64,000 bases of DNA, from contig KB722758.1 in the NCBI GenBank assembly GCA_000349905.1, positions 62,001 to 126,000 on the forward strand. Reading direction: 5' to 3'. Positions 7,372 through 50,142 of the stretch are shown here, in pieces (within the stretch, counting starts at the first letter, position 1; each line of letters opens with the position of its first letter). A program made the position numbers and the translations under genes. Source of the stretch: Volvariella volvacea V23 (taxonomy: Eukaryota > Basidiomycota > Agaricomycetes > Agaricales > Pluteaceae). The notes beneath the pieces were generated by a model. It saw only the letters and a program-made list of their open reading frames with translations, was not told the origin of the DNA and ran no database searches.

Positions 7372-9767
7372 TTACCAGTCCTCCCCGCCGTCAGATTTAT
7401 CACACCCATTATACACCTTCAAGTGCACAATTAGTTTAGTCAATAGCAAGAGGCAAGAGGCAAGAAGACTTACAGCGAGATAGTAGGCATAGGGTCGAAT
7501 GAGCTCTCCTCCACCAACAGAGTCCTCCTTTTTCCTACCTAGAGCGTAGACATACACGACACGCTCATGGATAGAATCCTTCACTCCGGCAGGGTCATCG
7601 TAGTAGCGATCTTGGGATGTAGCATACCAGTAGTTGGCATCCTTAGAAGTGTCAGTTCCAAGGTATCGATTGAAGTGCTGGACGACGTTGTCGTAAATTG
7701 CCTCTGAAGAAAATTGGGTGAGCATAGATGCAAGCCAGCGTCGGAGGGATACCTACCTCTGGCATATGGCGGGAACTTGGTAGTAGTGGGACTGCGAGCG
7801 TCAAGTGGAATGAGGAAAAGTTCTGCAACTATGAAGCAGCTTCAACTCACTCGAATAACTCGTTGGTCATGAACTTTGTGATTTCATCTTCACCAGGAGG
7901 ATACGAAACAGGATTGCACAACACGGCGAAGCTGCGGGTCGTGTTTCCTTTCTTATCTGGGGCAGCCGGATTGTTAAAGTCGAAATCGAAACCGAAGCTT
8001 TGCTTGAATTGTTTCATGGTATAGCTCAAAAGATACTCTTTCAACGCAGCGACGTCTCTCGAGGTCGAGGTTGTACCCTACGATCGTGAATAATCGTGAT
8101 TGCGCAAGCAAGGAAAGGGACACACCTCGAAGTGCAGAATAAGGTCGTTGCAAAGGTCGATCAAAAGGTCTCTAGCCAGAGCTATGTCTGCAGGGAATAT
8201 TTCATAGAAGATCTGCGGATAAGTACCTTGGTTAGAAAAAGAGTGATGACATTGGGAAACTTGGTACCGACAGCCATGTAGAAGATATAGGTAACCGAAA
8301 CTGTGACCTGACTATCGGTAGTCTTGTGATCATAGAAGTAGAAGATCACACCACGATTACGAATGGGATTAACACTCGGGTCGCTGATTCCGTAGGTATT
8401 GTCAATGTAGTTGGCGACCCAAGACTGAGCACTCTGCGCTTTAAGTATGGTTTGGAATTCGGTGGTGACATCCTGAATTGCCTGATCTATGTGACATCAA
8501 TATCAATGCCTGCGAAAATCGACAAGAGGAAAAAAAAACATCACTTTTAATGGAGTCGATTCCAATGTTAATACCGCTGTACATAAAATTGTGAGTCCTG
8601 AATTCAAAATATTAGGGGATGCATACCTGAAGATCTCGTTCTTAACCAATGCGGGAAGGGTGTTGGTCTGATCGAGGTCAGGCAAGTAACAAAGGTGGGC
8701 ATTGCGAGTGATTGACGACGTTCGGGCGTCAGTTGGATAATCAGGTGGAGTAGTATCATAGTCAAAGCCAAACTTGTTCTTGAATACAGTCTTTCCATAT
8801 TCGGAGAGGGCTTCCTGGAGATCTTGGTTGGTAGTTATGGCTGGGCTCTGGTCAAACAGTATTGGTAAGCATTCAGATGTCAAAGAACGGAATATAACTA
8901 ACAAATCCTGTGGTAGTCTTGGCGCTATTGTATGCTTCAGCCTGCAAGCTGTCCCTTGTGGCCTTCGCCTCAGACTCGATGTTGTAGTAGACCTAGAGCA
9001 ATGCGATGTAAGTAGAATCAAGAAAACAAAAGAATGGAATACATACGCCCATGAAATAGATAACACAAAGGTTTGCATTCAAACTATCTTCTGTGAGGGA
9101 GCCATTCACGTAGACCAAGTCTGCCTCGACCTTCCAAGAGTCCTGGTCTTCCATAGCACCGTCAAATGTCCGAACGTATTCAGAATACAACCACTGCTGA
9201 TCGGTGTCGACACCGACAAGACCTGTCGCGAGCGTGACAAGGTCGGCCTTTGCATTGGCTGATTTACGGACAATGTTAGGGAAATGGACAGTTGAGGCAT
9301 GGAGGAAACGGACCTGCAGCCCAGCCAGAGAGGTCGACTTTACTGAAGAAGACGTGAGGACCAGTTTTACAAGGAGTCGGTCAACTATACATGCCTGAAG
9401 ATCACTTGCTCGACATAATTCTTTGCTTGATCAGAGGTGGGGTCGGTGATACTGCAAAGCTTAGCAATGGGGGTGATGCGTCCGATTGCGTCAGGAGGGG
9501 TGCACTTCGTGGGGTCGTCGTCGTACGTGAAGCCGAACCTGGTTTGGAAGCGATGGAGTGCAATTTGATTGAGGATATCCTCGAGTTGCCAGGAGGGATC
9601 CGCATCAACACCAAAGTCCTTTAAAATAACGAGATTAGAACGGAGTAAGCCCAAAGCTATGAACGACTAACCGATTTCAACAAGGCTTTGGCGTTGGCCA
9701 ACAGTTTGTTCTGCAGGTCTTGTTGAACTTCGGAGAAGGATTTCTTGGTATCGTTTTTGCCACCCAT
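7372..9767 (-). CDS. Triple-module protein, minus copy (unrecognised tandem-repeat family)
   Basis: Thirteen exons could be assigned in phase: 9767-9672, 9618-9395, 9342-9314, 9258-9047, 8992-8903, 8847-8627, 8576-8545, 8486-8272, 8212-8126, 8077-7851, 7791-7757, 7703-7474 and 7416-7372. They total 1743 nt, or 580 aa. A 32-residue Lys-rich leader is followed by three repeats of about 150 residues joined by linkers of 29-30 residues. Each repeat has a Phe/Tyr-rich start (RFQTRFGFTYDDDPTKCTPP in the first), a very short exon, a conserved Trp, and a 'Y-V-N-G-S-L-T-E' then 'YF-M-G-V' ending. The protein ends GGEDW-stop. The second intron needs a GC donor (AG|GCATGT). No signal peptide or membrane segment is seen. 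I do not recognise the fold. It is divergent from the paralogue at 10509. Confidence 0.8.
7474..8077 (-). repeat. Protein module 3 of the minus triple-module gene
   Basis: Exons of 227, 35 and 230 nt. The module starts with LLSYTMKQFKQSFGFDFDF and ends LIRPYAYYLA, followed by the last exon VYNGCDKSDGGEDW. The short exon is two codons longer than usual. Confidence 0.75.
8272..8847 (-). repeat. Protein module 2 of the minus triple-module gene
   Basis: Exons of 221, 32 and 215 nt. The module starts with LSEYGKTVFKNKFGFDYDTT and ends VTVSVTYIFYMA. The short exon is one codon longer than the usual 29 nt. Confidence 0.75.
9047..9618 (-). repeat. Protein module 1 of the minus triple-module gene
   Basis: Exons of 224, 29 and 212 nt encode QIALHRFQTRFGFTYDDDPT at the start and LVYVNGSLTEDSLNANLCVI near the end. 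The exon phases (2, then 1, then 0) are the same as in the other modules. Confidence 0.75.
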
Positions 9768-10508
9768 TGTGAAAGGAGATCAGAGGAAAGCTAGCGAGGA
9801 ATTCAAATTCAGGAGTAAGAGTAAGATGCAGGAGGATGCTGCAGAACAGAGAAAAGGATGGGTCGTTTATAAGTGTCGGCTGAGGGTAGTTTCCGTAAGA
9901 TGAGCTTCGCCGATAAAATACCAAAAATCGTTTATCATTCACGAAGAATCCAGAACAACATAACTTCCAAAGACAACGGACGAGATGAGGCTCTGAACGG
10001 GCAGTAAATCCCTTGAAACAATGAACGAACCTCGTAATCATGACAGAGGCGTCAGGGCAGTGATAAAGTTGCGGTGTTCATGCCATTCCGACACACTAGC
10101 AATGACAGAAATAAGTTGGACGTCGGAAGGAATGAAGGAAACCCCTCATAGTTGTCGGAAAATAGGATCTGGTGTGGGGAACTACATTACTTTGCCTCCG
10201 GGCCCTCCGGTATTACGAGAACAGTGTGGCGGCCGATGATGACCAGACCCGCGTGACGTCACTGACAGTGACACTCAGAATGTTCCCTAGAGGTATCATC
10301 CACACAGCACTCTGAATTTCGCTTTGAATCTTCAGCTCAAAGAATGGGGGCCATTGCTAGCCGTCTGGGAGGCGGTATCTTTGGATCTTGGCGAGCGGCG
10401 GATATGACCGTCATATTTAGCATTTCAGTGATCGCTGGTTCACTCATATATCTCTCACTCCCCACTCCCCGCTGCGCTTGCAACCACCTCGAGCATTGAA
10501 CCACAACC
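9768..10508. other. Divergent intergenic region of two triple-module genes
   Basis: About 740 bp between the two starts, with no coding pattern. It presumably contains both promoters. The plus-strand start at 10509 has a good ACCATGG context. Confidence 0.5.
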
Positions 10509-12891
10509 ATGGTATTCGGAATCCGCACAGACTTGGATCCTGTTGACCCACCCAAGACGTACGACGATGTCGTAGCCGATCTGCTCACGCAGCTCTGTCA
10601 AGGCGCTAATGCGTCCCTTGGGTCCAACGTTCGTCACCACAATATCTCCTTTTGTCTACTTGTATTGATGTTACCTTTATTCAGGCCATCATACTTGACG
10701 ATCCACCCACAATCGATAATTTGAAGGACATATTCACTTTATTAGCTGCGCAACGCTTCAAGCAGAACTTTGGTTACGACTATGCTGGACGCGATAGCAA
10801 GCCTCCTAACAGCGTTTTTACTGCCTTGTCTGCGTCCGCGGTATTTTTCGACGTTCAGGATGGCGAAAGCGCTTCGAGCTATGTTCCAGGTCTTGTTAGC
10901 AAGGACATCATGGGGTTTGTACTCAATTTGTTCATTGCATCTATGCTCCACTAACAATAAACTAGTTCTCTTTCCGTCCCTAGCTGGTGCAAAGGTGGGT
11001 TCTTCCATCCCATAAGTGTCTCATCTAATATTTCTGCTGGTTAGACGCAGTACAGAAGGCTCTTACAACTGAATGCAGCACCATTCTGGAGTCATCCGGT
11101 CTCATCAACAATTGGACAAGCGATAAATTCACTGGGACGTATCCAGCTGTTGGCAAATACGATAACGCTTTCCATGCCGATGCCATGTTCGTCTACATCC
11201 ATGGGTCTTTGACTGAGGATACTATTAGTGTTACTCGAACTGCGTTGTTATATATTGGAGTAAGTTTTCTTTCACTAATTCCAACATTTCTCAAGCTCAA
11301 ATGTGTTTCATGAAGGTTTATTACGAGGTCGAAGCTGTGGCGAAGAAAGAGAAGGAGGCCTTGTGGAACACCGTGTGCAATTCTGCAAATACCCTCATCC
11401 CCGAGGTGCGTGCATTCATAATAGAATCGATAAATGACTAACTATAGATCAGCCGCTCGCGCTATCGACACCTCCTATATTGGGCGAGCTTACAACGATC
11501 TTGGAGCAGTATCGGGACAAGACGTTCGCTAAGGACTTCTCCTTCAGCTATGGCGGTCTGAACTCCACCCCTGCGGGTTCTGTGGGTGATACTGGTCGCG
11601 TTAGTTACCTCTTCGTATTCCAAGACGACGACACTTCGTCTCTTCAAGACAACCTTGACAACCGGGTTATAGCGTATGTATACTATTCATTAATGCATCT
11701 GCCTTTCTGATGTCGAATCTCATACCAGGAAACTCAACCTACCAACGTGGCTTCAAGGTATGAATATAAAGTAGTGCTTTTCAGTTACACTCATTAACGA
11801 AACGTTCAGACACAGCCCGAGCCGATATTCTACAAGAACTCAAGTACTGTCTTTCGGCACCTTCCGATCCCAACAACTGGACACCTGTCAAGATTGACAT
11901 GAGCTATTTTCCCGCTAGCCCAACGGATCAGACCATTTTGGACAAGGCCGAGATTTTGTATCGCAATGCAGTATCTGCCAATGTCCATGGGGTTTCGTCC
12001 CGTTATATCTACTATTCAGCAGTAAGTCTCGCGCTTTATTTCCTTTACTGAAGTTGATTAATGTAAATAGGTTTTCTACAAAGTGCCCTCAGTCCATGAT
12101 GTCGTCTATGGGGATCTTATCAAGACGTTGTGTAATTCCGGGCAGAGCATGCTCAGCGAGGTAATGAAAACCCAATTGTTTTTCTATTGTTCTAAAACGA
12201 CTTTTTTGCAGCCTTTGACGGTATCCAATCCACCCACGAAGGAAGACTTGGATAAGATCGCTATCGCAATATCGAACGCTCAGTTCAGGAAGACTTTCGG
12301 ACTCGAATACAAGGGTACCAGTACACAACCTGAAGACAAATCCTCAGCATCTTCTGCGGTCTATGCGTGCCAAGCGTGCATTTACCCTGAGCTCGATGAC
12401 ACGACTGCGGTCGCGAATTTTGTTGACCAGCAAATTTTACCGTGAGTTACAACCCAAACTTGACTGAAAATCACACCCATACGTCGTTCAGGGGGCTTGC
12501 ACTTCCGTTTGCGTCCCAAGGTAGGGTATTTCTATTGCTAAAACCCGCTCTAACTGACACGGTTCATTAGAAACTTCGCTTCTTGATAGCATCCGCAGAG
12601 ACCTCATCAAACAGGTTCAGGAAGCACTTCAAGCCAGTTCCGGCACTAGTTTCCGTAATTTATCCCAAGATAAATCGTATTCGTACTCGGACGACTCCCA
12701 TGCCCCTCTTGAGACAAAGGGGTTATTCCTGTTCGTGAATGCGACGGCCACCGAGGCTTCTCAGAACAATTACACGGCCCGCGTAAGCTTCGTGTATTAC
12801 ACAGGGGTATGGCCTTGTTACTTCCGTCGCGCTTACGTACTTAACTATCACATCGCAGATTTGTTATGACCAGGAGGCGGATGAATGGTAA
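10509..12891 (+). CDS. Triple-module protein, plus copy (unrecognised tandem-repeat family)
   Basis: Exons assigned in phase are 10509-10628, 10685-10914, 10966-10994, 11045-11259, 11316-11405, 11453-11673, 11729-11757, 11810-12021, 12071-12160, 12212-12441, 12492-12520, 12571-12806 and 12859-12891. They total 1764 nt, or 587 aa. The layout is the same as the minus paralogue: a leader of about 40 residues, then three modules separated by two 30-residue linkers each encoded by a 90-nt exon, and the ending ICYDQEADEW-stop. The three short exons are all exactly 29 nt and encode the pattern L-x-(L/V)-P-x-W or a relative (SLSVPSWCK, KLNLPTWLQ, GLALPFASQ). No signal peptide or membrane segment is seen. 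Function unknown. A structure prediction of one module would be the quickest route to a fold. Confidence 0.82.
10685..11259 (+). repeat. Protein module 1 of the plus triple-module gene
   Basis: Exons of 230, 29 and 215 nt. The module begins TLLAAQRFKQNFGYDYAGRD and ends with FVYIHGSLTEDTISVTRTAL then LYIG. Confidence 0.78.
11453..12021 (+). repeat. Protein module 2 of the plus triple-module gene
   Basis: Exons of 221, 29 and 212 nt. The module begins ILEQYRDKTFAKDFSFSYGG and ends SRYIYYSA. It keeps the NNW pattern in the third exon but has lost the N-G-x-T-E motif. Confidence 0.78.
12212..12806 (+). repeat. Protein module 3 of the plus triple-module gene
   Basis: Exons of 230, 29 and 236 nt. 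The module begins AISNAQFRKTFGLEYKGTST and ends FVNATATEASQNNYTARVSF then VYYTG. Confidence 0.78.
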
Positions 12892-14022
12892 GGAGCAGAG
12901 TCGATACGAGGACATATATGATGGCTATGAACCCTTTTTTTGTTTAATGTTACGAGAGTGATGCTTGTACTCGTTTTCAGAATATATGTGTTTCTGTATA
13001 ACAGCAGTGATAAATTTTGGCTTTTCTGATTTTGTTACTGCTGCTCAAGTAACGGTAGACCCGCTGTGCTAAAAGCAGCCCTGGTGTGACATTACTACGA
13101 CAGACAAGTGGCTGGTGCTAACGGTCACTATGATTAAACCTAGGCTGCGAAACTTGCGTTGAGTCCTGCGTTCTTGAGGTGACCAAACATAATAACATAC
13201 CCCAACAATAAAACGAATATACTGAGGGTTCCAATGCACAACAAGTCATTTGATCACAAGAGGCTTCGTTGTCGTGCCTGGGCCGCTTTTTCCCCCGATA
13301 TGCCTAGTGTTTCTCCATCTGCAAGATTGTATTATGAACTGCCTACATTCAATCAAAAGTTCGCAAATTGATCGTTTCAATTCAGCATTCCATATTTACG
13401 TTCCGACGTGTTCGTATCTAATTACATTTTTCGGGGTACTAAGACCGCCTTGGTGGAACTGGCTTTTGTGCAGCATTTCGCTATGTATCCGCTGTTACAC
13501 AACATATGTTTGACGCAGGGGGTTAATTATCTAACGGGCGGGGTTCTTGCCAATACGGATCAAACATTGACGGCATTCGCCGAATGTGGTTGTGCACGGA
13601 AGTCAGGGGCACCAGCTCCATCATCGGCACGTCCATATCAGCGGAAGCAGGCAGTGAGCAGTCTAACGCTTACATCATGATTGAACAGGAGACACAGCTC
13701 CTTGACAGTCGTGAGTGCGACATGTTGCGTCTGGGGAATTCACGCCATGACTTCAGGGCATTGTGGGCAGAAACCCCCGATTATTCTTTATGATACCATT
13801 CTGAACTCGTCCACCAGTGTCTAGGCGCGTACATGAAGCGGTGGTATTTTTATTGTTGAGTTTCACGGAGTTGTCTAACCACTTGAATGATGATGTATTT
13901 CCGTCTCGTTCGCCGATTCAAGCAATGAGCTTCTCAGATATAAAGCTCTATAATGTCCCTCACTTTCGATACATACCCTAAGTTCTGATCATCTCACCCT
14001 ACAACAGAAACTGTTGAAACTC
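12892..14022. other. Intergenic region upstream of the giant fusion gene
   Basis: About 1.1 kb. Open frames at 13250-13793 overlap one another without splice logic or paralogues and look fortuitous. The last 100 bp contain a TATAAA-like box near 13938, about 85 bp before the start at 14023. Confidence 0.45.
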
Positions 14023-17000
14023 ATGTCGAGCAAGAAGCACGCTGTTCTGCACGTAGTGAGTCCTGATCGCTTGAATCAATGTGTTGTCGCCTTGTTGATC
14101 GTACCATCCCCCCCAGGTTCAAGCCAGCTATGGAGATGCATTGATCCTCGAGTATGATGATGGAACCGGCAACGCTGCAGTTCGCTTTTGTGCCTAATCT
14201 ATCCGGGAGTATTTTTGACGATAGCTATCAGAATCCTCAATTTATGGTCATTGATGGTGGACCGACTGCAACAACGCGCTATTATCAACTCCCACCGGTT
14301 AATAGACCAAAGAGCAATCTTTTTACTGCATTGAACTACCTTTCTGGGGAGGACTCAGCATCGCAACCTCCGTATGGTAAGCTGAAGAAGATAAATACAG
14401 TCGTCCTTACCCACGACGATGAGGATCACAAGCAAGGTGCTACTTCTTCCGGCACTTGTATATGATAAACGATATTAATCACCTTTGATCAGGCATCCAG
14501 GACGTTTTTGCGGCATTGTACGTTTATCCTTTGGGTCTCATGCCAGTTTTAATACTGACAATTACCCAGATTAAACCCTGACGAAGATCGTGACAAGTTT
14601 AACGCATGGTTGCTAGGTGACCGCTTGGTTAAGAATAAGACTCCAGCTATCGACCACATTTGGTACAACAGGTGAGGCAATCCCCTCAACTCACAATGCA
14701 TTATTGGTGACACCTAAGGGAATTAACAGCCTTCGCAATATCGCCACAGCTACGGTATGTACCTGTCTTTCCGTATACTTGTCAGACGTCACTCTAATGG
14801 ATTTTCAGGGTCAATCGCCGGAAGACAATTGGTTTGATCAGCAGCTCAAGGCATACAGTGCGAATGTACCCATCCCCGGTGCATTCAACGACGATATAGC
14901 AAAGGATTCTACATTGAACAATGTTGCGCTAGCAATGGAAGGTGTCGAGGCCGCTAGTGGTGGCGGTGAGATTAAGCGAGGGCAATTCACCATTTCATTT
15001 ATTGGTCCCAGCGAGGACACTATCACGAAGCCTAAACTCCTCAAGGCTCTGGGGGCTACTAATTCGGTGAAAATGCCCAAATATGATTTCGAGGAAGAGT
15101 GAGTCAATCCTATTTACTGCTGAATCCTCATCAAACACTTCAACGCAGGGTCGATCAGAAAGTTGGCGAGTTAAGCAAATCAGCACTCAAAGACATGCAG
15201 ACTCTCGCAAAGACTGGTGGCCTCAACGCTAAACTTGATAACTCTATAAAGAACCGCGCTTCGATCGCATTTTGCGCTGCAGATGGCAATAATAAGATTC
15301 TTCTCCTTGGTGACGGAAATGCCACAATGTTTCGCCAAGTTTATGAAGACAACGGGAAGGTGCCCCTTGATTACACTATTATGAAGGTACTTTAGCTATT
15401 TAATGCCCTAACTGACCGCCCAACTGGAGTAATCCAATAGATAATGCACCACGGAAGCAAGCACAATAATTACTGGAGTGAAACGGGCGCAGATGCTCTC
15501 CTCAACATTTTCAAAGATATACCGACACTTAGCAAGTTTCAGAAATGTGTGACTTACTTCTTCTCAAAGTAAATCATTTTTATCAATTAAATCCACCTAT
15601 CTGACGCACATTCTAGGATTCGCGCAGAGAAATATGTTGTATGACTGCTAATTTTCTCTTTTGTACTCACTAAATACTCTACCCAGATATCTGCTTCGCC
15701 CCTCGAAAAGCACCCCAACCCCCACGTCACAACTGTGCTCGGGATTATGCTAGCTGCTCAAGAAAACAACAAGCCTGTTAGCATCTACTTCACCAATCCC
15801 ANNNNNNNNNNNNNNNNNNNNNNNNNNNNNNNNNNNNNNNNNNNNNNNNNNNNNNNNNNNNNNNNNNNNNNNNNNNNNNNNNNNNNNNNNNNNNNNNNNN
15901 NTGTTCAGGGCAGTTGTGAAAGCCATCTGGGACTTTAAGAATGCGAACAACAAGATCGACTTTTCAAAGACTACATACTGGCTTTTGGCGGAGGATTCGG
16001 ACTTTGGGACGGTAGATCTTTACAACAATGGGAGGGATGAGTGCTGGGTGATGTACGATGCATCCGGAAAGGATGTCTGGAATTCGTACGATACCCTCGT
16101 CAAATCTGAGAATCCCACAATCGCCGCCATCACGTTCAATAAACCTGTACAACCCCCAAAGAAGAAGCCGAAAACCACCAAACTAACTAGCTTTGCTGCT
16201 GTGTCGAATCTCGCTGCTGCCATACCTTCGTCTATCGTACTTCCACATCCATCTGTGTCTGTGGCCGCACCCCTCGTTGTTCCCAAGGTAGCTCCTAGTC
16301 AACGAACTTCTCAACATGGCTTGTTAGGCACTTCATCCTCGGTAACACATGATGCCATTGCTGCATCAGAGGTGCGCACAGTTCTGCCTCCGATCTCTTA
16401 ATTCTGTCATTGAAAACTCTATTAGCCGTTTCCAACTACGCAAATATCTGATTTCACGAGCATGCTGCAGTATCTAGTAAGCAAGAACTGCATACTATCG
16501 ACCCAAGCATCGCAGATCCAGCACGAAGCCACGAGCGGACAAGGCTACACGCTGTCTGCCATATGTGCTCTATTCTTTGGAATAGACCAAGCTAGCGAAT
16601 TTTTAGCCTCGATGCCTTGTAATCTTGCAAGCTCGACAGACTTCCTCTCTTTCCCCGATGCACCCTCCCGTTGGATTGTCACAAACTTCACGGCCAAGGT
16701 CGTAGATACCACCGCGTACGTGATATCTCAGTTTTTAGTCATGTAATCAGCTTAATCTATTGATTAGGGTGGACAATCCTGTGGCATTCGCTGGTTGGAA
16801 AGGCATCTATTCCATCACATTCGATGTGGCTTCTCCACAAGGCACCCCAATCCTTTGGACATTCCCATTCGCCGAAGCCTCACCTGATCAGAACAAAGTC
16901 CAGTACCGGTTCCAGCACGACGGTGCAATGAATATAACGGTCGTGTGGCCTGCATACGTCCAGCGAATTACTTCGGGTTGCTTCCAAGGTACTTTGGCAC

Positions 17001-20000
17001 TACCTACGAAGACGTACAATGTAAGGGCTTTGGTTCCTATTCCTTCTGTCAACTAATGATCCCAGGTTGTTGGTCGACTATATATGCTCACTGGGCAAGC
17101 GACGCAATACGAGTTCCTGTTTGCAGACAGCTCGTACTCTACAACCAACTACACAATTTCTATCAATGACATGTTAACATTGTTCAACACGCAACTCACG
17201 TTCTCTGACGCTGTTAACTCGCTTGCAATCAGCGGTGAGTGGTTTGCCTTCTCTGCTAGGTTCAGTGCTCATTCATCAAATTAGGCTTGGAGAGCGTGCT
17301 GGGGAAGTTGTCAGATACGATTCCACTGAACAACGGTGGATTTACTCTCAAGAAGATCCTATCAAAAGTAGTTTTGAAACAGATTTTCGCTGACCTCGAC
17401 TTCGACAGTATTCCTGCATGGAAGCCTTTTGGATCCACTAGCTTCTCCTTTGGGGTGTCTCAGCTGCACATCGTACTCAACGATGTCTATTCCTCACGGA
17501 GCCGGAACGTTAGTATAATCATACTTATTGAAGTACCCGAACTCATATTTCTGCAGCTCATACTGCAACTCGATGGGGATATGGCCTACCATAATTTAAG
17601 CAATTCCAGTGCAGTCATCCCCTTCGAGCTTACAGCCCAATTCACCCTCCAACAATTCATGTTCTTCGAGGTCGCCATATTACCTGGAATCGATGACGAA
17701 CTAACAATCAGCGAGCTTCTCACCGTCGTTGGTCTTCCTTCGTCGTTCGATCTTTCACAGACGTTCTCTGGTGTCTCCAACCTGTCTAATTCCCTTAGTA
17801 TCTCACACGTAGCGCTGGGATGGATGGGTAATGTCCTACCAAAATACGCTACGATCACCGTATCAATTGACGACTGGACTTTGATACCAAACGTACTTTC
17901 GATCGAGAAAATCTCGGTTGAGGTTCAGGCATCGAATTTGTCTTCCCTGGGTCCTGCACAACTTGCGCTTGCTGGTTGGGGTACTCTAATGATCTCAGAT
18001 ATTGAGGTCGACGTCTACCTAAACGTCATTCACGACCCATCCAGCCCTACTCCTGACATTGCCAACTTCAGAATATCGACTCAAGAGCAGGATATCCCTC
18101 TTGGTGTCGTACTGGCACACTTCTTTGAACAGAACTTTAATCTCTTCGCTCAAAGCTTCGATTCCCTCCTCACCGAAACGGGCATAGAAAACTTTGCTAT
18201 CCAGGCGGTTCACGATGCGAACGGGTGGTCAATTACTGAGCTTCAGATTGCTGTGCGTGTTGATGGACGGATTGACGTTTTCGGTATGTGGATGTTCCAT
18301 TCTGTGCCTTCTTTACCGACTTCGGACCCAGAAAATATAGAGTTGGAATATCCCACACTGACGGTCGTTCTACAGTACCCCTTTGATACGGTGCGACAAA
18401 TTCATCCCACACTTTCTGTGATCTGATGACTTTTTAGACAAGAAGGACTATATATACTGCATTGGATACAACTGTGTTTATAGGGGATATAGCTAGCAGC
18501 GCCACGATTTTAGTATCCTCGCAGGCTCAGACTGAAATTGCGCTGACATTTACTTCTGAAGAGCGACCAGTTACTCTCCAAGCAGTATTGGCATACTTCA
18601 TTCCAGGTAAAAATTTATTCTTGTCATTCATTCCTTCAGCTCTAATGCATTCTCAGACCTGGACAGTATCGCTATTCCACCTAGCTTAACATTCTTCCTA
18701 GGTCTCGGAATCCAAAGTGCAACCCTTGTACTGGACCTCGTGAATGGAAAGTTCTCCGTCAGCGAGGTGTCCGTAGGCATCATCTCGACATCGTCTCTCA
18801 AACTATGGGACGAACTCACTCTAAACCGTATTTCACTGCTCTTCTCATACTCAAAGACTAGTGGAAATAAGGTGCTGTTTGATACCATGCTCGAAATTGG
18901 TGACGGATCAAATTACCTTAACTTTTCGCTGCTCTACGATGGCCCGCCCACTTCTGTATCCCCTTCAGTGAGTCCGTCAGACCCTGGAACGGCAATCACT
19001 GTCCCTCCTGGCTCGTCATGGACTGCCACGGCAACTTACGACGGCACTATTTCTGTCGTTGACGCGTTGTCAAGAGTTTCAGGCATCGATATTCGGGAAA
19101 AATTTACCTCACTTAGTCTCTCGCAATTGTGCAACGTTATTGACATCAATATCTCCAACTTATCAGCTTCCCTCATCAAGAATCCTAATACGATGGCCTT
19201 CACATTTATCGCTAACACCGACTGGCTGTTCTTCTCCAACATACGATTCGCCTGCTCTAGAACAACGAAATGGTCGTATTCACTCGGGTTTGGGCTTCAA
19301 TCGAGCGATCAGCTCTCAACTACATTCCCTGTTCTCAAGCCCATCTTCGACGTCGTCTCCTTTAGTGATGTTACAATTGTCGTGTTTACCGACGTATTGG
19401 ACCCTGGTGCCCTTCCACCCAAACTGAATATTCCACAGCGGTTTACACATGACGGTATCAACGTTGCATTCGCCGGCCAACTCGCAATTAATGGAACTAA
19501 ACTTGGACTCTTTGGAAAGCTTCTAGACTACGCTAGTCTGGATATCTTAGGAGTTATCGGAGATGAATACCTCTCCCTCTCAGTTTCCCTCAAGTCTGTT
19601 ACCCTCTTCAATGGTGACATGTCGCTTGCAGGTGCATTTGTAATGATATGCTCCCAAGATACGAACATGATGCCTAAGATTGGAATTCAAGGTAGATTTT
19701 CGACATTTATTTTCTCGAACTCTCCTAATTTTTTGCAACAGGGACTGCTGTCTTCGACTTCGGAGAACACGTCTCAAAGAGCCCTGTGACAACCTCACTC
19801 CTTCTCTTCGTCGACACAAGTACGACAGCCCTTGGTTTTACTTTCAAGCTTGACAAATGGGAGTCTGTCTTTGGCTTTGATGGTCTGAGCTTCGAGAATG
19901 TCGTCTTTTCTGCCGAATTCCCTCCAGAAGAGTTCCCAGTGCCATCTGCGTTCACTGTTGCTGGAACAATCAAGCTGACCGTCAATGATGCATATTTTGG

Positions 20001-23000
20001 GGGAAGCGTCGATGTCCACTTTGAAGAAATGGCATTAACAAAGTCATATGCTATGGGAAGCATCGAGTAAGCTCGCTCATTTGAGGTCTTTGAGTACACA
20101 ATTAATATCTGCCCATAGGGGTCTCACTTTACAGAATATCATTAAAGCCTTCACGGGCATTGGGGATATTCCTGAGTATCTTGATGCTGGTTTCGGACCT
20201 CTCGACTTCAAACTCGTACCTCAAGATATCGTAAACTCGAAGGGAGAGCTGACAAAGAAGGAATTCAAGATGAAGGGCTCCATGGAGATTGAAGTCATCC
20301 ATTTCGCAGCTGATGTTGATATCGACATATCAGAGACCCAGATCGTTGCAGACGGACGCATCTCCCCTATTGTCGTTGTTCACGAGCAACTCTTTAGCAT
20401 CCTAGCATCCCCAGAAGAAACACCAACGCCTCCCCCAGGAAGCGGTGCATCAATCCATATCTCTCTTCTTGGAGATGAAGAGCCTGGTGTCAAGATTTCG
20501 GGACAGTTCACGTTCTTGAGTATGACGAGCGACATCTTCTTCAGCCTCACGGAGAAAGGCCTTGAATTCGACCTCGAACGTGAATGGGTAATTGGAGGAG
20601 CTGTTTCTGGACTTATCAACAAGGACGGACTATCACTTTCTGGAACCGCATCCCTTTCTCTTCAGCTCGAGCTACCTACTTTCACGATAGGATCCGTCGA
20701 GTTTGGAACAATCCCTATCGCCTCATTTGCGGCAACCCTCGGTCTCAGTGTTATCTGGAATAACGTCGTGTGGAGTCTTAGCGTCGGTGGATCATTTGAC
20801 GTTTTTGGATTATCCATGAGCAAGTCTGTCACCGTAGGAGGAGATATACAAGACCTAGAGGCAATAGGGAAGGCGGTCGGAGACGAAATCAAGAAGACGT
20901 TTACAACTGACTTCCTTAATACATTGAAGGCCATATCTAGCGATCTCAAAAAAGTGATTGACATTCTGGACAAAATCGGATTATCGACGAAGGACATACT
21001 CAAGTTTATAACTGAAAGTCTAGGAGCAGCTCTGGATGATGCCGTTAACGCTGTCAAAACCTTCTTCGGAATGGGATGGGATGCCATCGCATCAATCATG
21101 CAGGGTATCGGGAAAGCCGCTGAGGAAGTGGGTGATGTTTTCAAGAAGCTTGGATGCGAGGCATATGATATGGCCGTGTATGTCCTGTTCTTTCTGGTCC
21201 CTTTGATCTTCGCTCTTGTTGACCCACTGATAGCGCAATTGCAAGAGCATTTGGAAATGCAGTCCAACAGTTCTGTGGAAAGATTCTCCAGGATGCTGGA
21301 AAGGTGATCAAGGATGTAGCTACGTAAGTCACCAATGCATATAGCTTGACGTCTAGCTTACCTTCTTTTTAGATTCTTTATAGACATCTTCTCAGCTAAT
21401 GATCAAGGAGTCGTCGATGCACTCATTGAGCTGGCATACGACGTCTTCGACATCGTTGACGTTGTCTGTGACCTGTTCAAGATGCTTGCAACTGCAGTTT
21501 GGGAGTATGTTGGCCCTACTTATTGCAGCAAATTTATTAACCCCTTTCAAAGTTTAATTCATGGAAGTAGATCCAAGAAGTCTCAGGAGCAAGTTCAAAA
21601 GGACCTCTTGCTCATCTTACTCATCAACGCTAACAGCCTCGTTGCAAACGTAAATCATTGTTGATTTGAAACGACTCCTTATTCACTTTATTGCAGCCCA
21701 TTCCTATCAATGGATCTGCAGCAACACAGCTCCAAGATGTACTTAATGAATACGCCCTAACAAGCTTCAGTAAAGAGTGGCAATACGCATACGCAGGGAA
21801 GAATACCACACCCCCAGGAGCAATAATCCCGCCTGCGGTTACCACATTTGATGGTATGCTATCATTCACGGATGGACAGGTGAGCCACATCGATGACTTT
21901 GCAACTAATGTCACGAGGTACGGCTTTCCTCCTGAATTTTTTCTGCCTCGTAGCTGACTTGTTGGGTGTAGTGGTCTGGGTTTGCCGAGTTGGAGCACAT
22001 GTAAGTGATGGCAGCAATACCATAACTCCATCTCACCATCCGGTCTTAGCGGCTGCTGGATACGACATCAGGCGACAACTGGAAGGACTGAACGACCTGC
22101 CGAAGGGAAATACCTGGCAGGTCGTAAATTTCCTCAAGATGTATACTTCAGAAGATGGTCAAAGCTGCATAAAGGCCAACGCTGTGATTGTCTTTGCAAA
22201 TGGTGCATTGACAGAGGATGGCCATGACGTTACACAGACGGTGATGTACTATATGGGAGTGCGTATAATGCTAGCTCTTTCGTGATACTTCGGCTTATGA
22301 GACCCCACGAATAGGTCTACTTTAACATAGTTCCCCCCACCATAGCAGCCAAACAAGCCTTGCGCGCCGAGGCATTGCAAAAGGCAAGCTCGCTCATGAA
22401 TAATGTAAGTACTGGCGTCAGTCACAGACTCATTGTATACTTAGCATTCGTCTATCTCCTAAAGGGCAAACCGATCGCAAATGATGCTTCTCTTCAAGCA
22501 GTCCTGGAGACATATACGGCCAACCTGTTCCAATCGCAATTCCAGTTTTCCTATAACTCGACACCACCAGACTTACCTACTGGAGGAAGCTTCCTAAATT
22601 CCAAGGCCGATGCGTTAGACTACCTTGAGGATAAGAATGTGAATGACATTGGAACTTTTGTACAGACGAAGCTTATTAAGTGCGTGTATTCTGATCTAGA
22701 ACTCATTTCAGGAGCTGACGAAGGACTACCACAAACAGCAAGCTATCCCTTCCACAATGGGTTAATTGTGAGTCGATTATCTATCTTTTTAGTGCAGTCC
22801 TGGAATGCTAATTTTCAACAGCCATTGCACTCACAGACATGATGAATGATTTCAAGAGCGTGGTCTCTGTTGGAGCACCCGGATTCTGGACCAGTGAGAA
22901 TGTTGATCGGACTTACAACCCCTCAGACGGCGTGTCGAGACCTGTTAGGTGCAAAGGTGTTATCGTCTACTATACACAGACCAAGTCAACAGATGATGGG

Positions 23001-23874
23001 GTTGAGGTCGAGATTGCTTATATCTTCTTCCTTGGGGTGTGTATCTTTGCATTTAGCATTTTATTGCAGTTACTCACGTTGCTTTCCAGGTATTTTACGA
23101 GATTCTTCCTCCTGATACGGCTGTGTTCTCTGATCTGGTGAGAGAGCTGTACATCAACCTTGTCAATACTATGGGCGGGGTAAATGTCTCATCGTTTGCG
23201 GTCTTTATGGGTGTCTGATGGCACCTTCATTTGCAGAAACCTGACCCCGGTGTCACACCGACACCCGACGCGCTCAAAGAACTCCTTGCAACATACTCCC
23301 GCTCCCAGTTCCAACGTAAATATGGGGTCGACTATAAGGGGAATTCAACCGCTCCTGGGGATTCAGCTGGCGGTGCAGTATATGGAACTGAGAGCTTCCG
23401 TCAATTCCAGCCTGAAAGTGATTCATCTGTTTTGGGCACAGATATATCTGGTTGGGTGGATTCCGTGCTTGTGTACGCTTAGCTCCCACTCTGTTGTCCA
23501 AGTTCGATCTAATCTTGGGCGCACGCAGGTCCTCTCAATTCCCTCTCTTCAACCAAGTTCCAGCCATGCGCACAGATTTCATGAACGAGGTGGAATACCT
23601 CCTTTCACCTGCAGCTGCGCACAAGACCAACTACTGGGATATCGTTCAATACGAGAGGTCGTACAATCACCCAACGAATTCTGATCAGATGGTCAACATA
23701 TCAGCAACATTCATCTATGTCAATGGTTCTACGACGGAGCAAACAACCACAGTGAAAGCAAGCTTCGTATATTATCTCGGGGTGAGTATTCTGTCTAAAA
23801 TTTGTCGTTGTTCCGTCTCATGAGTTTATGCACTGAACTAGGTTGCTTATGTTGGTACTGCGGACGATTGGTGA
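14023..23874 (+). CDS. Giant fusion: ComEC-type metallo-beta-lactamase, beta-rich region and triple module
   Basis: A single multi-exon gene of about 2,700 residues is inferred. Exon 1 (14023-14055) encodes MSSKKHAVLHV and exon 2 (from 14117) VQASYGDALILE, the usual start of ComEC-like metallo-beta-lactamase domains. Then come FMVIDGG, VVLTHDDEDHKQG (metal-binding His/Asp cluster), ILLLGDGN and IMHHGSKHNNYW (HHGS motif). A 100-N gap (15802-15901) interrupts the end of this domain. A Lys/Pro/Ala-rich linker (about 16140-16400) leads to a long beta-rich region (about 16.4-20.8 kb) of alternating hydrophobic strands with internal repeats. An amphipathic helical part (about 20.85-21.65 kb) follows, then three C-terminal modules homologous to the two neighbouring genes, ending VAYVGTADDW-stop. 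No signal peptide or true membrane segment is evident. Neither the beta region nor the modules are recognised. Confidence 0.72.
14117..15560 (+). other. ComEC-like metallo-beta-lactamase domain region
   Basis: The order is glycine-rich start (SYGDALILE), buried strand with DGG (FMVIDGGPT), metal site THDDEDH, Asp/Gly strand LLLGDGN and HHGSKHNN. This order is characteristic of the ComEC/Rec2-type branch of the metallo-beta-lactamase fold, whose members are hydrolases, some acting on nucleic acid. The metal-binding residues appear intact. Substrate is unknown. Confidence 0.75.
15802..15901. other. Assembly gap (100 N) inside the giant fusion gene
   Basis: Exactly 100 N, a conventional placeholder, so the true missing length is unknown. 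It interrupts the reading frame just after YFTNP, near the end of the metallo-beta-lactamase domain. Confidence 0.98.
16430..20850 (+). other. Beta-rich repetitive region of the giant fusion
   Basis: Many consecutive exons encode strand-like alternations of hydrophobic and polar residues with recurring blocks such as 'tl..il...gl', 'FSFGVSQLHIVLND', 'LSLSVSLKSVTLFNGDM' and 'SISHVALGWMG'. The blocks suggest internal duplication into several related beta units. I cannot name the fold. Confidence 0.55.
20850..21660 (+). other. Amphipathic helical region of the giant fusion, with a hidden intron
   Basis: Segments such as DILKFITESLGAALDDAVNA and AIASIMQGIGKAAEEVGDVF predict amphipathic helices. 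The frame appears to run on through a hydrophobic stretch at 21178-21233, but that is an intron (GT|GTATGT to CTGATAG). Splicing gives AIARAFGNAVQQFCGKILQD, which continues the helical pattern. Confidence 0.65.
21697..22258 (+). repeat. Protein module 1 of the giant fusion
   Basis: Begins VLNEYALTSFSKEWQYAYAG. It has a 29-nt short exon (GLGLPSWST) and ends VFANGALTEDGHDVTQTVMY then YMG. A 30-residue linker starting VYFNIVPP follows. Confidence 0.78.
22465..23036 (+). repeat. Protein module 2 of the giant fusion
   Basis: Begins VLETYTANLFQSQFQFSYNS. The 29-nt short exon encodes KLSLPQWVN and the module ends VEVEIAYIFFLG. A 30-residue linker starting VFYEILPP follows. Confidence 0.78.
23237..23781 (+). 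repeat. Protein module 3 of the giant fusion, short exon fused to the next
   Basis: Begins LLATYSRSQFQRKYGVDYKG and ends ATFIYVNGSTTEQTTTVKAS then FVYYLG. The sequence matching the 29-nt short exon (SSQFPLFNQ) runs straight into the following exon, so one intron has been lost precisely. Confidence 0.75.
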
Positions 23875-38915: not shown

Positions 38916-41473
38916 TTATCCCACATCCATCGAGTCGTCTCTCTCCTTCCCCTTGCCCTTCCACGCCCCTCCGCTCCCATTAACCCCGCTCGCGAACCCC
39001 TTGACCAGATTCATAGCTGCCGCATTTGCACTGCTAATCGTCTTATCCCCTCCACCAGCAGTACTATACAGCTCGCTCCCTCCTTCAACCACGCTCCCCA
39101 CCGCCAACGTGCTCCCGACCCCAACGCCGTACTTGATCCCCTCCGGCTCGCCCTTGAGTCCCTTGAGGGTCTCCTCAATCTCCTCTTCGATACCCTCGTA
39201 GATGGTGTGCGAGGGCAAGCCCCATATCCGACCTGGATGCTGCTCTTGTTTGGAAGCAAAGACTGTACCGACCGTGTCGACCCATTGACGGCGCGTGTCC
39301 GCGAGGTGCTTGAGCGGCTCTGGAATGTGGAGGTAGTTGCTTTCATCCGGGGAGAGACCCAGAGCTGCCGGAGTTGGCGGTAGATGGTGCAGAAGCGGTG
39401 TACCCGCCGTCGAGGGAGGTACATCGCCATTCACGTTGGTGGAGTTTGAGGATGTCGAGGCTGAACCGTTGACGATGCCGTTGACGCCATTTACGGCGTG
39501 ACCGTGTCCTTTCTCCTCCTCTCCCCCTGTTGATCCGGATCCTGAACTGCCACCCTTCTTCTTCTTCCTTGCCAGCTTTGGCGCGTCCTTCTTCTGCAGC
39601 TTCATGTACGTCGTTGAGATATTCTTGTCTATTGAGTCTCGCAGCTCGAGGTATTCCTGATATCCTAATCGGTCCCGGGCTATTTCGGCTAAGCGACGTT
39701 TCCGTGCTTTGTTGGTAGCCAGGATTATACGCAGTTTGGCTTGTGCTTCTCGAAGGGCTGTGGCTATCGGGTCGTCAACCTTGTTGGTGAAATCCGGCTG
39801 AGGTCGAGATCAGAATCGATAAAAGACACGTAGATAGTTACGAAGACCCTCAAGGGGAGTAGTCGTCATGAAAGACAGGCGCTATACGTACCACACCGTC
39901 AAGTAACCCATGTATCCGCATTGTGTCCCTGATCCTGTTCTCCAAGTCTGATACGTTCATCTTCTCCCGCCGCGCAGCAGCAGCACCACTACCACCAGGT
40001 CTACCCTCCATAGCATCCTCCGCAGCTTTCACAGTCTTCCAGCCTGCGTCCTGCATAGGTAACAGAGCGCTAATAACCCTCTCGGTCAGCGGTGCATGTC
40101 CCTTCTCCTCGTTTACCAAATCCGTCTCGGCAAGCGTCGATGGATCCCATTTCGGCACCGGCGCTTGATAATACGACTCGTGGGCTTCCTGCCAGTCCGC
40201 TGCTATCCCGCCTCCGTTTCCAAACATGGCCGCATCCTGTTCTTCCCAAACATCCAAATAATGTCTACCCAACTTTGGCAAGATGAACGGTTCGACTTCG
40301 TCTGCTGTGTATTCCAGAAACCCAATGTCCTCTTCTCGGATATTTCGGATCCAGGGTTCGACGGTGTTGTAAAAGGTTGTGATGGGCGTTTGGTTGTTTG
40401 GAGGCCTTTGCTTGCTGAAGTCTTCTGTGACGTCGGTTGCTTTACTGGGTATTGGTGTTGGTGCTGGGGGTAATGGCGGTCGATCGGGAAGTAGTGCATA
40501 AGACGGGGGTAAAGTGAAATCTGGGCCTGTGGACGGCTATGAAACAACCATGGTGGCTCAAGGTCAGCCTTAGCAATGAATTAAGAAGTAGCAATGAAGG
40601 ACCTTGGAACTTGATGATATCGTAGACTTCTGCGCTTTCGGAGGAGGTGGTGGAGGCGGTTGAGGTTGGGGAGTTGGTGCGGGTGATGTGGCTTTCCGCG
40701 GGCGTTGTGTTTCTTGAAAGGTAAATATAGTAAGGACCAAGACATGGATGAGCAAGTTGCAACGCACCGACTTCCGGTTCGCTTTCGTCATCTCGTTTCC
40801 GCTTCTTTTTCTTCTTCTTGTCGTCGATTATTCTGTAGTCGTGCGCCACAATTGAGGATGCGGGAGAGCAGAAGGTCTATCGGAGATGTACTCACGATTT
40901 CCGCTGGTCTAATGAAGATCTACTGGAGGAAGGCGGGACACCGTTGATGGGATGGGAACCTGGCCTGGAGTGTGGTATTGGTGGTTTCGCGTCTTCGGAA
41001 TCAAGCGACGGTGTATCTGTGTCGTAAACGGCAAGCGGGTATAATGCGTCGTCAGGAAGGGACAGAAAGATCGCAGGCAGGCGAATCGCGTCCATGCATG
41101 TCGCAAGGCATTCGAAAGCACGGGTGATAGGCAAGCAAGTGAAATGGTTCCGAGCGTCGGAGATGTGTTAGCAAGTAAAGCATGGCCCGGCGTAGGACGA
41201 GAAAAAGGACGCACAATCACGCTCTCTTTTGACCTTTTCGAGCACTTTCGACTTTGCCTTCTCCTTCTCCCTCAATCTCCGCATCGAATCCTCAAGCGCT
41301 TTCAGATCCTCTCCGGCCTTCTTCAGTCTCTCCATCGTCTTTTGCTTGATGAGTTTGAGTTCGTCGTGGAGCCTCTCGAGCTCGTCGGTCGAGGGTATGT
41401 TGTCGGGGACATTCTTGACGATGGAGGAGGTTATTTGGGGGGGCTGTTTGAATGGAGAGAGTCTGAGAGCCAT
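38916..41473 (-). CDS. NGG1: Transcriptional adaptor Ngg1/Ada3 (SAGA/ADA complex)
   Basis: The start is the ATG at 41473 (MALRLSPFKQPPQITSS). Exons are 41473-41221, 41017-40896, 40876-40768, about 40712-40607, about 40523-39892 and about 39799-38916. A coiled coil (ELERLHDELKLIKQKTMERL) and a Lys-rich stretch precede the Ada3 signature: EPWIRNIREEDIGFLEY, LPKLGRHYLDVWEEQD, SDLENRIRDTMRIHGLL, ALREAQAKLRIILATNKARK, then ADTRRQWVDTVGTVFAS. Ada3 links Ada2 and the Gcn5 acetyltransferase in the nuclear SAGA and ADA complexes, so it affects histone H3 acetylation and transcription. The C-terminal region has a Ser/Asn-rich insert (about 39420-39550). It is divergent from the Mg2+ transporter 147 bp away. 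Confidence 0.85.
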
Positions 41474-43713: not shown

Positions 43714-44139
43714 TGATTGGGATGGTACCGCCCGGGCATTCGTGCTGTGTTGTGCGTATGTTCTGTCTGTTAGCTATATGTTATTTGCTCTGTTGCTTTG
43801 TCCGATTGGTTTATAGGCGGTAGGGGTGGTAATGTGGACATTTGCGTTGGTGGGGATATATGCACATAGACTTGGTTATGTGGTGGGTACCAGTATTTGT
43901 ACGGACGATACCCCGAGACGGTGTTGATTAGTTGTGGGTTTTGGTAGATACTTATAGTATGTCTATAATCGACGCAGGACTTTGCGTTTCCAGTTGTTTT
44001 GATCTTCTAGCCATGGTGGTCGGCCGATTGGCGATTTGCAAGATGGCCGATTAGTCCGGAAAGGATACTTTTGTTGGAGGTCAGCCTCAAGTTGAGGTTG
44101 GCTGGGTGCTTGTTCGTGGCTTGAAGTCCACCAGGAATC
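43714..44139. other. Intergenic region upstream of the PL14-like gene
   Basis: About 430 bp, no coding pattern. Confidence 0.5.
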
Positions 44140-46312
44140 ATGGCATTTCAGTTGCAATGGACGTATACCGCTCAAGGCCTCTCACCTGTCCCTACCAATT
44201 TCGCCCTCGACACACCCATATACCCCACTCCTGCCTCTTTACCCTTCGACCCTCTACTAGCCACTTCAATGTTAAGTGCATCATCGCCAATAGCAACTCA
44301 AGCAGTAACGACACCTGCACCACAGACTTCGACAATCTACGAAACCGTCACCGTCACTCTGGTACAAACGACGACCGTTGGAGATGTGCCGAACTTGTTG
44401 TCCAACATCGCTCCGAGTTCCACGCCTGCGGCTGTCTCGAGTGCAACGCAAGGTGCCACATTACCACCAACGCCGTCTGCTTCTCCACTAGGAGAGCAGC
44501 CTTTACTACCTTTGCCGATATCCTTATCCCTTCCGATACCGGTTCAACCCGTCTTGCCGTCGCTACCACTAGACCTTCCTCTCCCACCCGTCCTACAGTT
44601 GCCCACCAGCACGTCGTCGTCGTTGCCAAGCACCAGCGCGCTGCCAAAACCGCAAAGAGAATGGAGTGCTCCGTCGTCCATCGAGGATCTGAGCAGCTTC
44701 GGCATAATCAAGTTCTACGGGAACGTGCACAACGTGGATTTGGTCGAGGGTATACCAGCCAGCGCTAGCGCACTCCCTCATCCATCGTCTGCACCTTTTG
44801 ACCCCAACGCGCCTTCATACCTCCAACACCCCTCATCGTCTAGCGGTACTGCGGGTGACGATAGTGGTGACGGCGACGATGACGATACCACCACAACCCC
44901 GGCCCTCCCGATTCCTTGGGACTCCTCCTGGACGAATACTACGAAGGTTCTGCAAATCCTCTACCCCGCCCACTCCGCCAACCCCTCCTCAAAACCCACC
45001 GGCGGTGCCCAGTTCTACGCCAACCCCTTCCTCCACACCGCGTCCTCTCCTTCCTCTTCCTCTTCCCCTTTCACCTCCGCGACCGCCGAGGGAGGGATCG
45101 AGATCGCTAAAAATGTGTCGTTTGAGTATAGCGTGTTCTTTCCGAGAGATTTCGATTGGGTCAAAGGCGGCAAGTTGCCCGGGTTGTATGGAGGACACGA
45201 GGGGTGTTCGGGAGGGGACAGCGCGGAGAGCTGCTGGAGCACGAGGATGATGTGGAGGGCGGGAGGGGAAGGGGAGCTGTACCTCGTAAGTTCACTTTTC
45301 TTCGTCTTTCTTGCTTTGTGTTGGTGTTGAAGTAGACCTCTAGTATGCGCCTAGGGACAAACAACCCGCCTATCTCTGCGCAGATCCAACGTCGGTTTGC
45401 AACGCTGTATATGGGTTCTCCGTCGGACGAGGGTCGTTCTCGTTTGTGAGCGGTGGGTGGACAAAGTTACGGCAGACGATTGTTTTGAATACACCAGGAA
45501 AGCAGGATGGGGTGTTTGTTTTGGATATTAATGGGAAGCGTGTACTCGAAAGAGATGGGTTATTTTATAGGGATACAGGGAGGAAAGGGTCTAGTGGTAG
45601 GGACGGGGACGACGACGAGCGTAATGGGACGGGTGCTGGGAAGGGAGGTGGCGGAGGGAAAGGGAAAGGCGGAAAGAAAGGCGGTAAAGGTTCTTCGAGT
45701 TCAGGCGGTGGACTACTTGGTGGACTGCTTTGGTCGCCTCAGAGCTTACTCCAGAGAGAGGACCAGCGCCCAGTGAATCTTCAGGTACCCGCACAAGACG
45801 ACGCGTACGTTTTATAAATTTTTGCATGAAAAGTGGGCTAATTATAACCCATTCGGTCTAGAGTCCGAAGCGATTTGGCCGCCCAGTTCCAGAAGATATT
45901 AGGGCCTAGTCGCTCAGTATATCTCGCGGGTGTGGCTCCTGGAAGTGTAGAGGAAGACATGCTTCACGGAGCGCAAGGCGTCCTTCGACCTGACGTGATT
46001 GAATACAGCGAGGTAGACCCGCAAGACAATGAAGGCGAAGGTTACGACGAGCGCCAATTACCAATATTGACTTTGGGCTCTATTAAACTGTCTGCCGAGA
46101 ACAATCTCGAGGCTTTTTCTCCCATTGAAGGGGACATTGCATTCGAAAAACCCTCGGCAACCATTCAAGACCAAGCGGCAGCGACAGAAAAACCGATAGG
46201 GTTTACCGGGATCTTCTTCAGCACGTTCTTTGGTGGTCATCAGCCAGAGTATGCGACGCCGAGGGATCAGTACGTTTGGTTCAAGGACTTTTCGGTGGTG
46301 CAGAATAGTTGA
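44140..46312 (+). CDS. PL14-family polysaccharide-lyase-like protein
   Basis: Exons 44140-45285, 45344-45804 and 45862-46312 give 685 aa. The first 250 residues are Pro/Ser/Thr-rich low complexity. From about residue 260 the polysaccharide lyase 14 pattern appears: FEYSVFFPRDFDWVKGGKLP then GLYGGHEGCSGGDSAESCW, YLCADPT, GGWTKLRQTIVLNTPGKQDG, and at the end TGIFFSTFFGGHQPEYATP then FKDFSV. PL14 enzymes cleave uronic-acid polymers (alginate, glucuronan) by beta-elimination. A Gly/Lys-rich insert (about 45590-45720) splits the domain. No signal peptide is seen after the ATG at 44140, which is odd for a wall- or substrate-acting enzyme. An upstream exon or anchoring by another route is possible. 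Confidence 0.78.
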
Positions 46313-50042: not shown

Positions 50043-50142
50043 NNNNNNNNNNNNNNNNNNNNNNNNNNNNNNNNNNNNNNNNNNNNNNNNNNNNNNNNNN
50101 NNNNNNNNNNNNNNNNNNNNNNNNNNNNNNNNNNNNNNNNNN
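50043..50142. other. Assembly gap (100 N)
   Basis: Exactly 100 N, true length unknown, flanked on the left by repeat-like sequence and on the right by 250 bp without a recognisable gene. Confidence 0.98.

Follow-up and report, generated by a model that had tools for sequence, protein, structure and literature searches.

A Volvariella volvacea locus of triple-module genes and a giant protein with a nuclease-type N-terminal domain

What are fungal proteins built from three copies of one module, and what could they be for? The question is raised by positions 62001 to 126000 of contig C23 of Volvariella volvacea V23 (a 35.4-Mb assembly of 54 contigs), a stretch of 64,000 nucleotides called the window below, in which a reading of the letters alone (the sequence-only reading) had described three adjacent genes with three copies each of an unrecognised module. 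Positions are those of the window unless preceded by C23. Two of these genes, g1 and g2, encode stand-alone triple-module proteins; the third set of modules ends a far larger protein, the giant, whose N-terminus is a metallo-beta-lactamase (MBL) domain. We tentatively read this region, at somewhat less than an even chance, as an old fungal defence or killing locus centred on the giant, which would combine an MBL nuclease, a scaffold and a triple cytolysin-like head.

The third set of modules ends a giant protein

Homologues were sought with three queries in a set of 5.8 billion proteins. Since only proteins of similar length were considered and ~8,000 candidates were scored per query, single-module or distant relatives may escape detection. 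The proteins closest to the window genes came from V. volvacea WC 439; g1-type proteins of that strain were absent among the candidates scored. Below, P0001 is AX16_008949, P0003 is AX16_008934 (2634 aa) and P0004 is the giant of Macrolepiota fuliginosa (2672 aa). Volvariella belongs to the Pluteaceae and Macrolepiota to the Agaricaceae, both families of the Agaricales.

The claim of three adjacent genes did not survive this comparison: g1 and g2 are separate, and what was taken for a third gene encodes the end of a ~2,630-aa giant that starts at 14023. The exon leading into its modules has a single in-frame ATG, which sits within the coding sequence of the upstream protein, and the coding frame passes from a helical stretch straight into the modules. 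P0003, one protein in the NCBI annotation, maps colinearly onto 14023 to 23871, with 100% identity to the window giant in five unbroken pieces and lower identity across introns or an assembly gap. P0004, also a colinear giant, shares 36% identity with a paralogue query over 100% of the query, and the same N-to-C plan, from the MBL domain to the last module, recurs in P0003, P0004 and the paralogue modelled at C23:18033-8215. Fusion in these three leads us to reject a free-standing third gene and alters the likely meaning of its modules, which form the tail of a protein with a recognisable nuclease-type domain at its other end. The P0003 annotation reads part of module 1, in a microexon region, unlike the other modules, probably through mis-splicing, and the P0003 module 1 row was therefore omitted from our module alignment.

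Homology, number and predicted fold of the modules

The nine copies themselves, three each at 7372-9767 (minus strand), 10509-12891 (plus) and 21697-23874 (plus), were recovered both by BLAST and by profiles that do not depend on splicing. The nine segments cut from the three gene products are 173-188 residues long, linker included. In databases of only nine and three sequences, respectively, the between-gene BLAST E-values of modules reached 2.5e-31 (g1 m2/g3 m2, where g3 stands for the giant's modules), 2.0e-22 (g2 m3/g3 m3) and 1.4e-21 (g1 m1/g3 m1), and those of whole triple-module products were 3.5e-64, 9.7e-53 and 8.9e-32; the weakest module pairs, g1 m3/g2 m2 (0.2) and g1 m3/g3 m2 (0.05), are non-significant alone. 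For the count without splicing, both large exon types were made into profiles (11 rows from P0001-P0004) and run against six-frame translations of C23:1-126000. At E <= 0.05 we obtained 27 first-exon and 26 third-exon matches, and none in the reversed sequence. Genes represented in the profile (g2, its paralogue and the window giant) match by construction, while g1-type genes lie outside it. These 27 copies in 126 kb are spread over eight three-module genes, another gene that is truncated by the contig start and keeps two modules, and a single-module fragment at C23:29032-29598; the one absent third-exon match adjoins the assembly gap at C23:23943-24042. Whole-genome searches with single proteins matched C23 only, with at least 17 matches for g2 (E <= 0.001) and at least 37 for the giant's modules (E <= 1). 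A second cluster, in the opposite order, lies ~40-70 kb upstream in C23:1-30000 and holds three g1-type genes (one of them truncated at the contig start), a minus-strand giant, a g2-type gene, a gapped g1-type gene and the one-module fragment.

The motifs proposed for the module fared unevenly. Regular expressions found F-x3-F in all nine modules, but the N-G-x-(x)-T-E motif in just four and the Y-Y-x-G end in seven; just four positions, L10, F22, P34 and Y113, are invariant across the 11 aligned module rows. The window genes do have the described C-termini GGEDW, ADEW and ADDW, yet the acidic-Trp end holds only loosely, because P0004 terminates in ESGW.

The fixed number three was borne out by a tree of 15 modules from P0001, P0002, P0004, window g1 and the window giant. 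Modules 1, 2 and 3 each formed one group across the five genes with moderate support (88/85, 81/80 and 77/83; 87, 78 and 78% of bootstrap trees), g1 m3 being a long branch of unsure placement. The three position labels need two changes on the tree, the minimum, and none of 200 shuffles scored as low. One old triplication thus accounts for the three modules per gene, and it is probably older than the divergence of giants from stand-alone genes and than that of Macrolepiota from Volvariella. An open-ended repeat is rejected, because eight genes hold three modules each and the three positions form separate groups.

As far as sequence families go, the module is indeed unrecognised at threshold. 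Pfam gave no match for the giant's modules, P0001 or g1, and a single sub-threshold one for P0002 (DUF6197, E 0.065); NCBIfam and PADLOC gave none for P0001, the sole module protein searched there, and no PDB sequence matched a module under E 1. A candidate DUF6603 label had no Pfam match and was dropped. The weak PDB rows of the module profile (M17 aminopeptidases, E 1; scaffoldin, E 1.6) and a match of P0001 to PHROG 3723 (E 0.016) were taken as chance. P0001 had no tblastn match at E 1 in 72,556 plasmid and 50,697 phage records, a search of limited sensitivity that revealed no source of the module in bacteria or viruses.

At the level of structure, by contrast, the description has to be qualified: the predicted fold most resembles that of the cytolysins (Cyt/volvatoxin A2), so the structure of the module may not be entirely new. 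The best structural matches (VIA) of two module models were Cyt/volvatoxin fold entries (PF01338), with modest Z; among the listed matches they took ranks 1-8 and 10 for one model (CytC ranking 38) and 1-5, 7-9 and 11 for the other. Volvatoxin comes from this same mushroom. Unlike volvatoxin A2 and the Cyt toxins, the modules always come in threes, and they share no detectable sequence similarity with them: no module matched PF01338 at E 1. A genome search with PF01338 found 12 loci, nine of them over the cut-off and none on C23, and hhalign of the modules against volvatoxin-like open reading frames (ORFs) from eight of the 12 gave a probability of 0.1%, no better than 100 column shuffles. These loci lie on contigs C1, C13, C16 and C53, several close together on the last three, and make up a volvatoxin gene family. 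In a viral fold library the best row, for the second model only, was an uncharacterised Megaviridae protein (BFVD A0A5J6VJS8; Foldseek probability 0.99, E 3.7e-3, TM 0.36).

The likeness to Cyt might instead reflect a common arrangement, the modules being an alpha/beta orphan domain that binds ligands or proteins (PAS-, START- or hotdog-like, or of a new fold); we regard this as possible but rather doubtful. The giant would then be a nuclease-scaffold protein whose three-module tail serves recognition, and the products of the stand-alone genes, presenting the same surface, would act as decoys or receptors. Against this, most of the listed Cyt-fold entries, CytC excepted, head the matches of both models, and the top ones align over 118-144 residues, compared with 101-105 for the PAS-like row.

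The MBL domain and the body of the giant

For the N-terminal domain, we searched PADLOC and NCBIfam with the modelled first 485 residues of the paralogue, a model that misses the HHGS exon, although frame translation finds that exon at the paralogue. PADLOC returned LmuA (2.8e-26), RTasMBL (1.3e-14), PDC-M48B (2e-6) and Avs1a (4e-4); NCBIfam returned Avs1a (1.4e-10) and 6A-MBL (2.3e-5), and no others at E 1. With 40.5 bits against a cut-off of 420, the domain is not an Avs1a equivalog. In Pfam, the first 890 residues of the paralogue matched nothing but Lactamase_B_2, below threshold (0.11), and the three matches of the LmuA profile in this genome at E <= 1 all fall within the two giants. In PHROGs, residues 211-337 of the MBL part match a phage tail family (E 4.1e-6).

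A scan of bacterial genome contigs for MBL relatives gave pattern matches and no relative, and tblastn of the P0003 MBL domain against plasmids hit six of 72,556 records at E <= 1e-3, the best at 2e-8. Four of these were inspected, one of which carries no annotation. The Rhizobium leguminosarum gene follows an S8 serine peptidase gene; that of Agrobacterium lies alongside two genes of the caspase family and one gene each for a TIR-domain protein, a CHAT protein and an S8 peptidase; and that of Priestia precedes an ABC-three-component system. The metal-site motifs HxDxDH, GD and HHGS are present in P0003 and P0004. When these two fungal sequences were aligned with four bacterial ones, HxDxDH was found in all six and HHGS in four (HHAS or HHGA in the others). 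Both the giant and its plasmid relatives have a long stretch ahead of N-x-x-S-I, which in this alignment lies 190 and 208 residues after HxDxDH in the fungal sequences and 151-170 in the bacterial ones.

Kinship with such nucleases also bears on a quite different proposal, namely that these are fruiting-body proteins of a non-toxic, structural or storage kind, with an MBL domain that is a metabolic hydrolase, which we consider improbable. In its favour, conservation among the exons compared is highest in the middle part. However, NCBIfam includes metabolic families, yet the only MBL matches at E 1 are two anti-phage models, and the domain carries a HxDxDH motif of the ComEC type (PMC12799240).

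The conservation just mentioned comes from the two giants: in 14 exon pairs of the window giant and its paralogue (34 exons modelled), dN/dS was 0.03-0.36 in 12, synonymous sites being saturated in the other two. The giants, to which this analysis was confined, are old and under purifying selection in the compared exons. Their middle part, of about 1,300 residues, gave no Pfam match at cut-off in the parts searched, in the paralogue too, and no internal repeats by BLAST at E 1. The helical stretch that follows shows weak similarity to tape-measure (PHROGs, E 1.4e-5) and chemotaxis-receptor (E 0.0019) proteins, and the paralogue has a PhageMin_Tail match below cut-off (E 0.0042). These tape-measure matches, like those to Prominin and other helical families in Pfam and PHROGs, were taken as composition.

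By eye and hydropathy, neither g2 nor the giants have a signal-like N-terminus (internal windows of P0003 reach 1.79 on the Kyte-Doolittle scale), and they are therefore probably cytoplasmic, as are many mushroom defence proteins.

A candidate killing machine and its known counterparts

If the locus serves defence or killing, its parts would act as follows. DNA would be cut by the MBL N-terminus, which is related to gated pro-DNases known from bacterial anti-phage systems and is linked by a long scaffold (beta-rich by eye, then helical) to the C-terminal triple modules, and the neighbouring stand-alone genes would supply the triple head only. This head would bind lipid or membrane, or assemble with other triple heads; the stand-alone heads would co-assemble with the giant or restrain it, as volvatoxin A1 does A2; and the MBL domain would cut DNA once released or proteolysed. 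The target may be a predator, a competitor or the fungus's own cell.

A gate of this kind has bacterial precedents. According to PMC12799240 (Tuck et al.), the MBL relatives are protease-activated DNases of bacterial defence in which two insertions, shown or predicted, lie over the active site. There, both insertions of HamM are cut by a trypsin-like partner, a single cut is seemingly sufficient in AVAST, CanC is activated via a caspase complex, and the pair of protease and MBL nuclease is also found in Lamassu and DRT; a word search of that text found no mention of fungi. The giant shares profile matches and the HxDxDH, GD and HHGS motifs with these pro-nucleases (HamM, Avs1a, Lamassu- and DRT-associated MBL, CanC). 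Unlike them it belongs to a mushroom, is fused at its N-terminal domain to a scaffold and triple modules, scores far below the Avs1a cut-off and has no linked protease among the families searched, namely Peptidase_S8 (23 matches in the genome), caspase (one) and Trypsin_2 (none), with no match on C23.

A rival reading is an internal immunity or allorecognition effector, in which a distant host protease activates the giant, which then kills the fungal cell by cutting DNA, the triple heads sensing or localising. We think this unlikely, if worth keeping in view. The bacterial relatives are protease-activated, the N-terminus has no signal-like stretch, and S8 and caspase genes do exist elsewhere in the genome; however, none of the three protease families has a match on the contig, 18 long neighbouring ORFs scanned gave no match to an NLR or other sensor, and g2 is 99% identical between two strains, hardly a polymorphism of allorecognition. 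The gasdermin fold is held to be unrelated to that of the modules. What the HET-Q1/HET-Q2 pairs of gasdermin and subtilisin would share with the giant is an effector of fungal cell death that a protease activates: PMC12881547 describes a fungal gasdermin whose cleavage by a subtilisin-like protease is likely. At this locus no protease of the three families was found.

For the regulation that the defence or killing reading would assign to the stand-alone heads, volvatoxin A1 is a precedent in this very species of a larger regulator of a cytolysin. From its size, A1 may be a tandem of A2-like domains. Volvatoxin A1 (44.8 kDa) inhibits the pore-forming A2 (22.4 kDa), which the authors take as direct interaction (PMC9230820). 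In a similar way, the triple heads encoded by the stand-alone genes may regulate that of the giant or join it.

In a bolder form, which we think possible but rather doubtful, the giant of at least two mushroom families would join a bacterial anti-phage-type pro-DNase to three cytolysin-like modules acting as a head, with a scaffold of ~1,600 residues in between, and the head-only genes that flank it in V. volvacea would tune it. That a membrane-acting and a DNA-cutting head would thereby be united in one molecule, a eukaryotic killing or immune machine, seems to us similarly doubtful; no account of one was found in the openly licensed literature searched. If true, a bacterial anti-phage effector nuclease would occur in mushrooms, rebuilt into a giant protein, and a sequence-orphan module family would gain a testable membrane role, connecting work on fungal protein toxins with work on how components of prokaryotic immunity spread into eukaryotes. 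Even without the fold call, an orphan triple-module family tied to a nuclease domain in two mushroom families merits a structure, and a fixed triple repeat can pass for an unknown family until its fused partner domain is read.

Features of the triple-module locus (window positions)
Feature	Positions	Strand	Basis or remark
g1, stand-alone triple-module protein, ~580 aa	7372..9767	-	exon reading; homology to g2 and giant; splice-free profile matches
g1 modules	~9618-9047, ~8847-8272, ~8077-7372	-	C-terminus GGEDW
g2, stand-alone triple-module protein, 587 aa	10509..12891	+	exon reading; P0001 identity; profile matches
g2 modules	~10685-11259, ~11453-12021, ~12212-12891	+	C-terminus ADEW
Giant gene, ~2,630 aa (orthologue P0003, relative P0004)	14023..23874	+	exon reading; homologue mapping
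Giant N-terminal MBL domain, pro-nuclease clade (P0003 residues 1-497)	14023..16147	+	motifs HDDEDH, LLGD, HHGS; PADLOC/NCBIfam matches of paralogue; motifs and alignment of P0003/P0004
Giant long middle part, beta-rich by eye (P0003 ~591-1868)	16426..20850	+	without Pfam match at cut-off
Giant helical stretch (P0003 about 1869-2090)	20851..21504	+	weak tape-measure-like/coiled similarity
Giant module 1	21697..22258	+	BLAST and profile match
Giant module 2	22465..23036	+	BLAST and profile match; modelled via P0003 orthologue, pLDDT 88.1
Giant module 3, C-terminus ADDW	23237..23874	+	BLAST and profile match

The splice pattern read earlier agrees, for g2, with the public predicted protein AX16_008949 (99% identity over 100% of its length); identity to AX16_005923 is 67%. 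In module 1 of g1 (9312-9400, minus strand) a GC-AG intron is seemingly required ahead of a 29-base microexon, an exon size seen again in several further modules. Two assembly gaps of 100 N each lie in the window, at 15802-15901 within the MBL domain of the giant and at 50043-50142. Ordinary neighbour genes in the window include an Ada3-like ORF (38919-39809) and a polysaccharide lyase 14 ORF (44125-45327).

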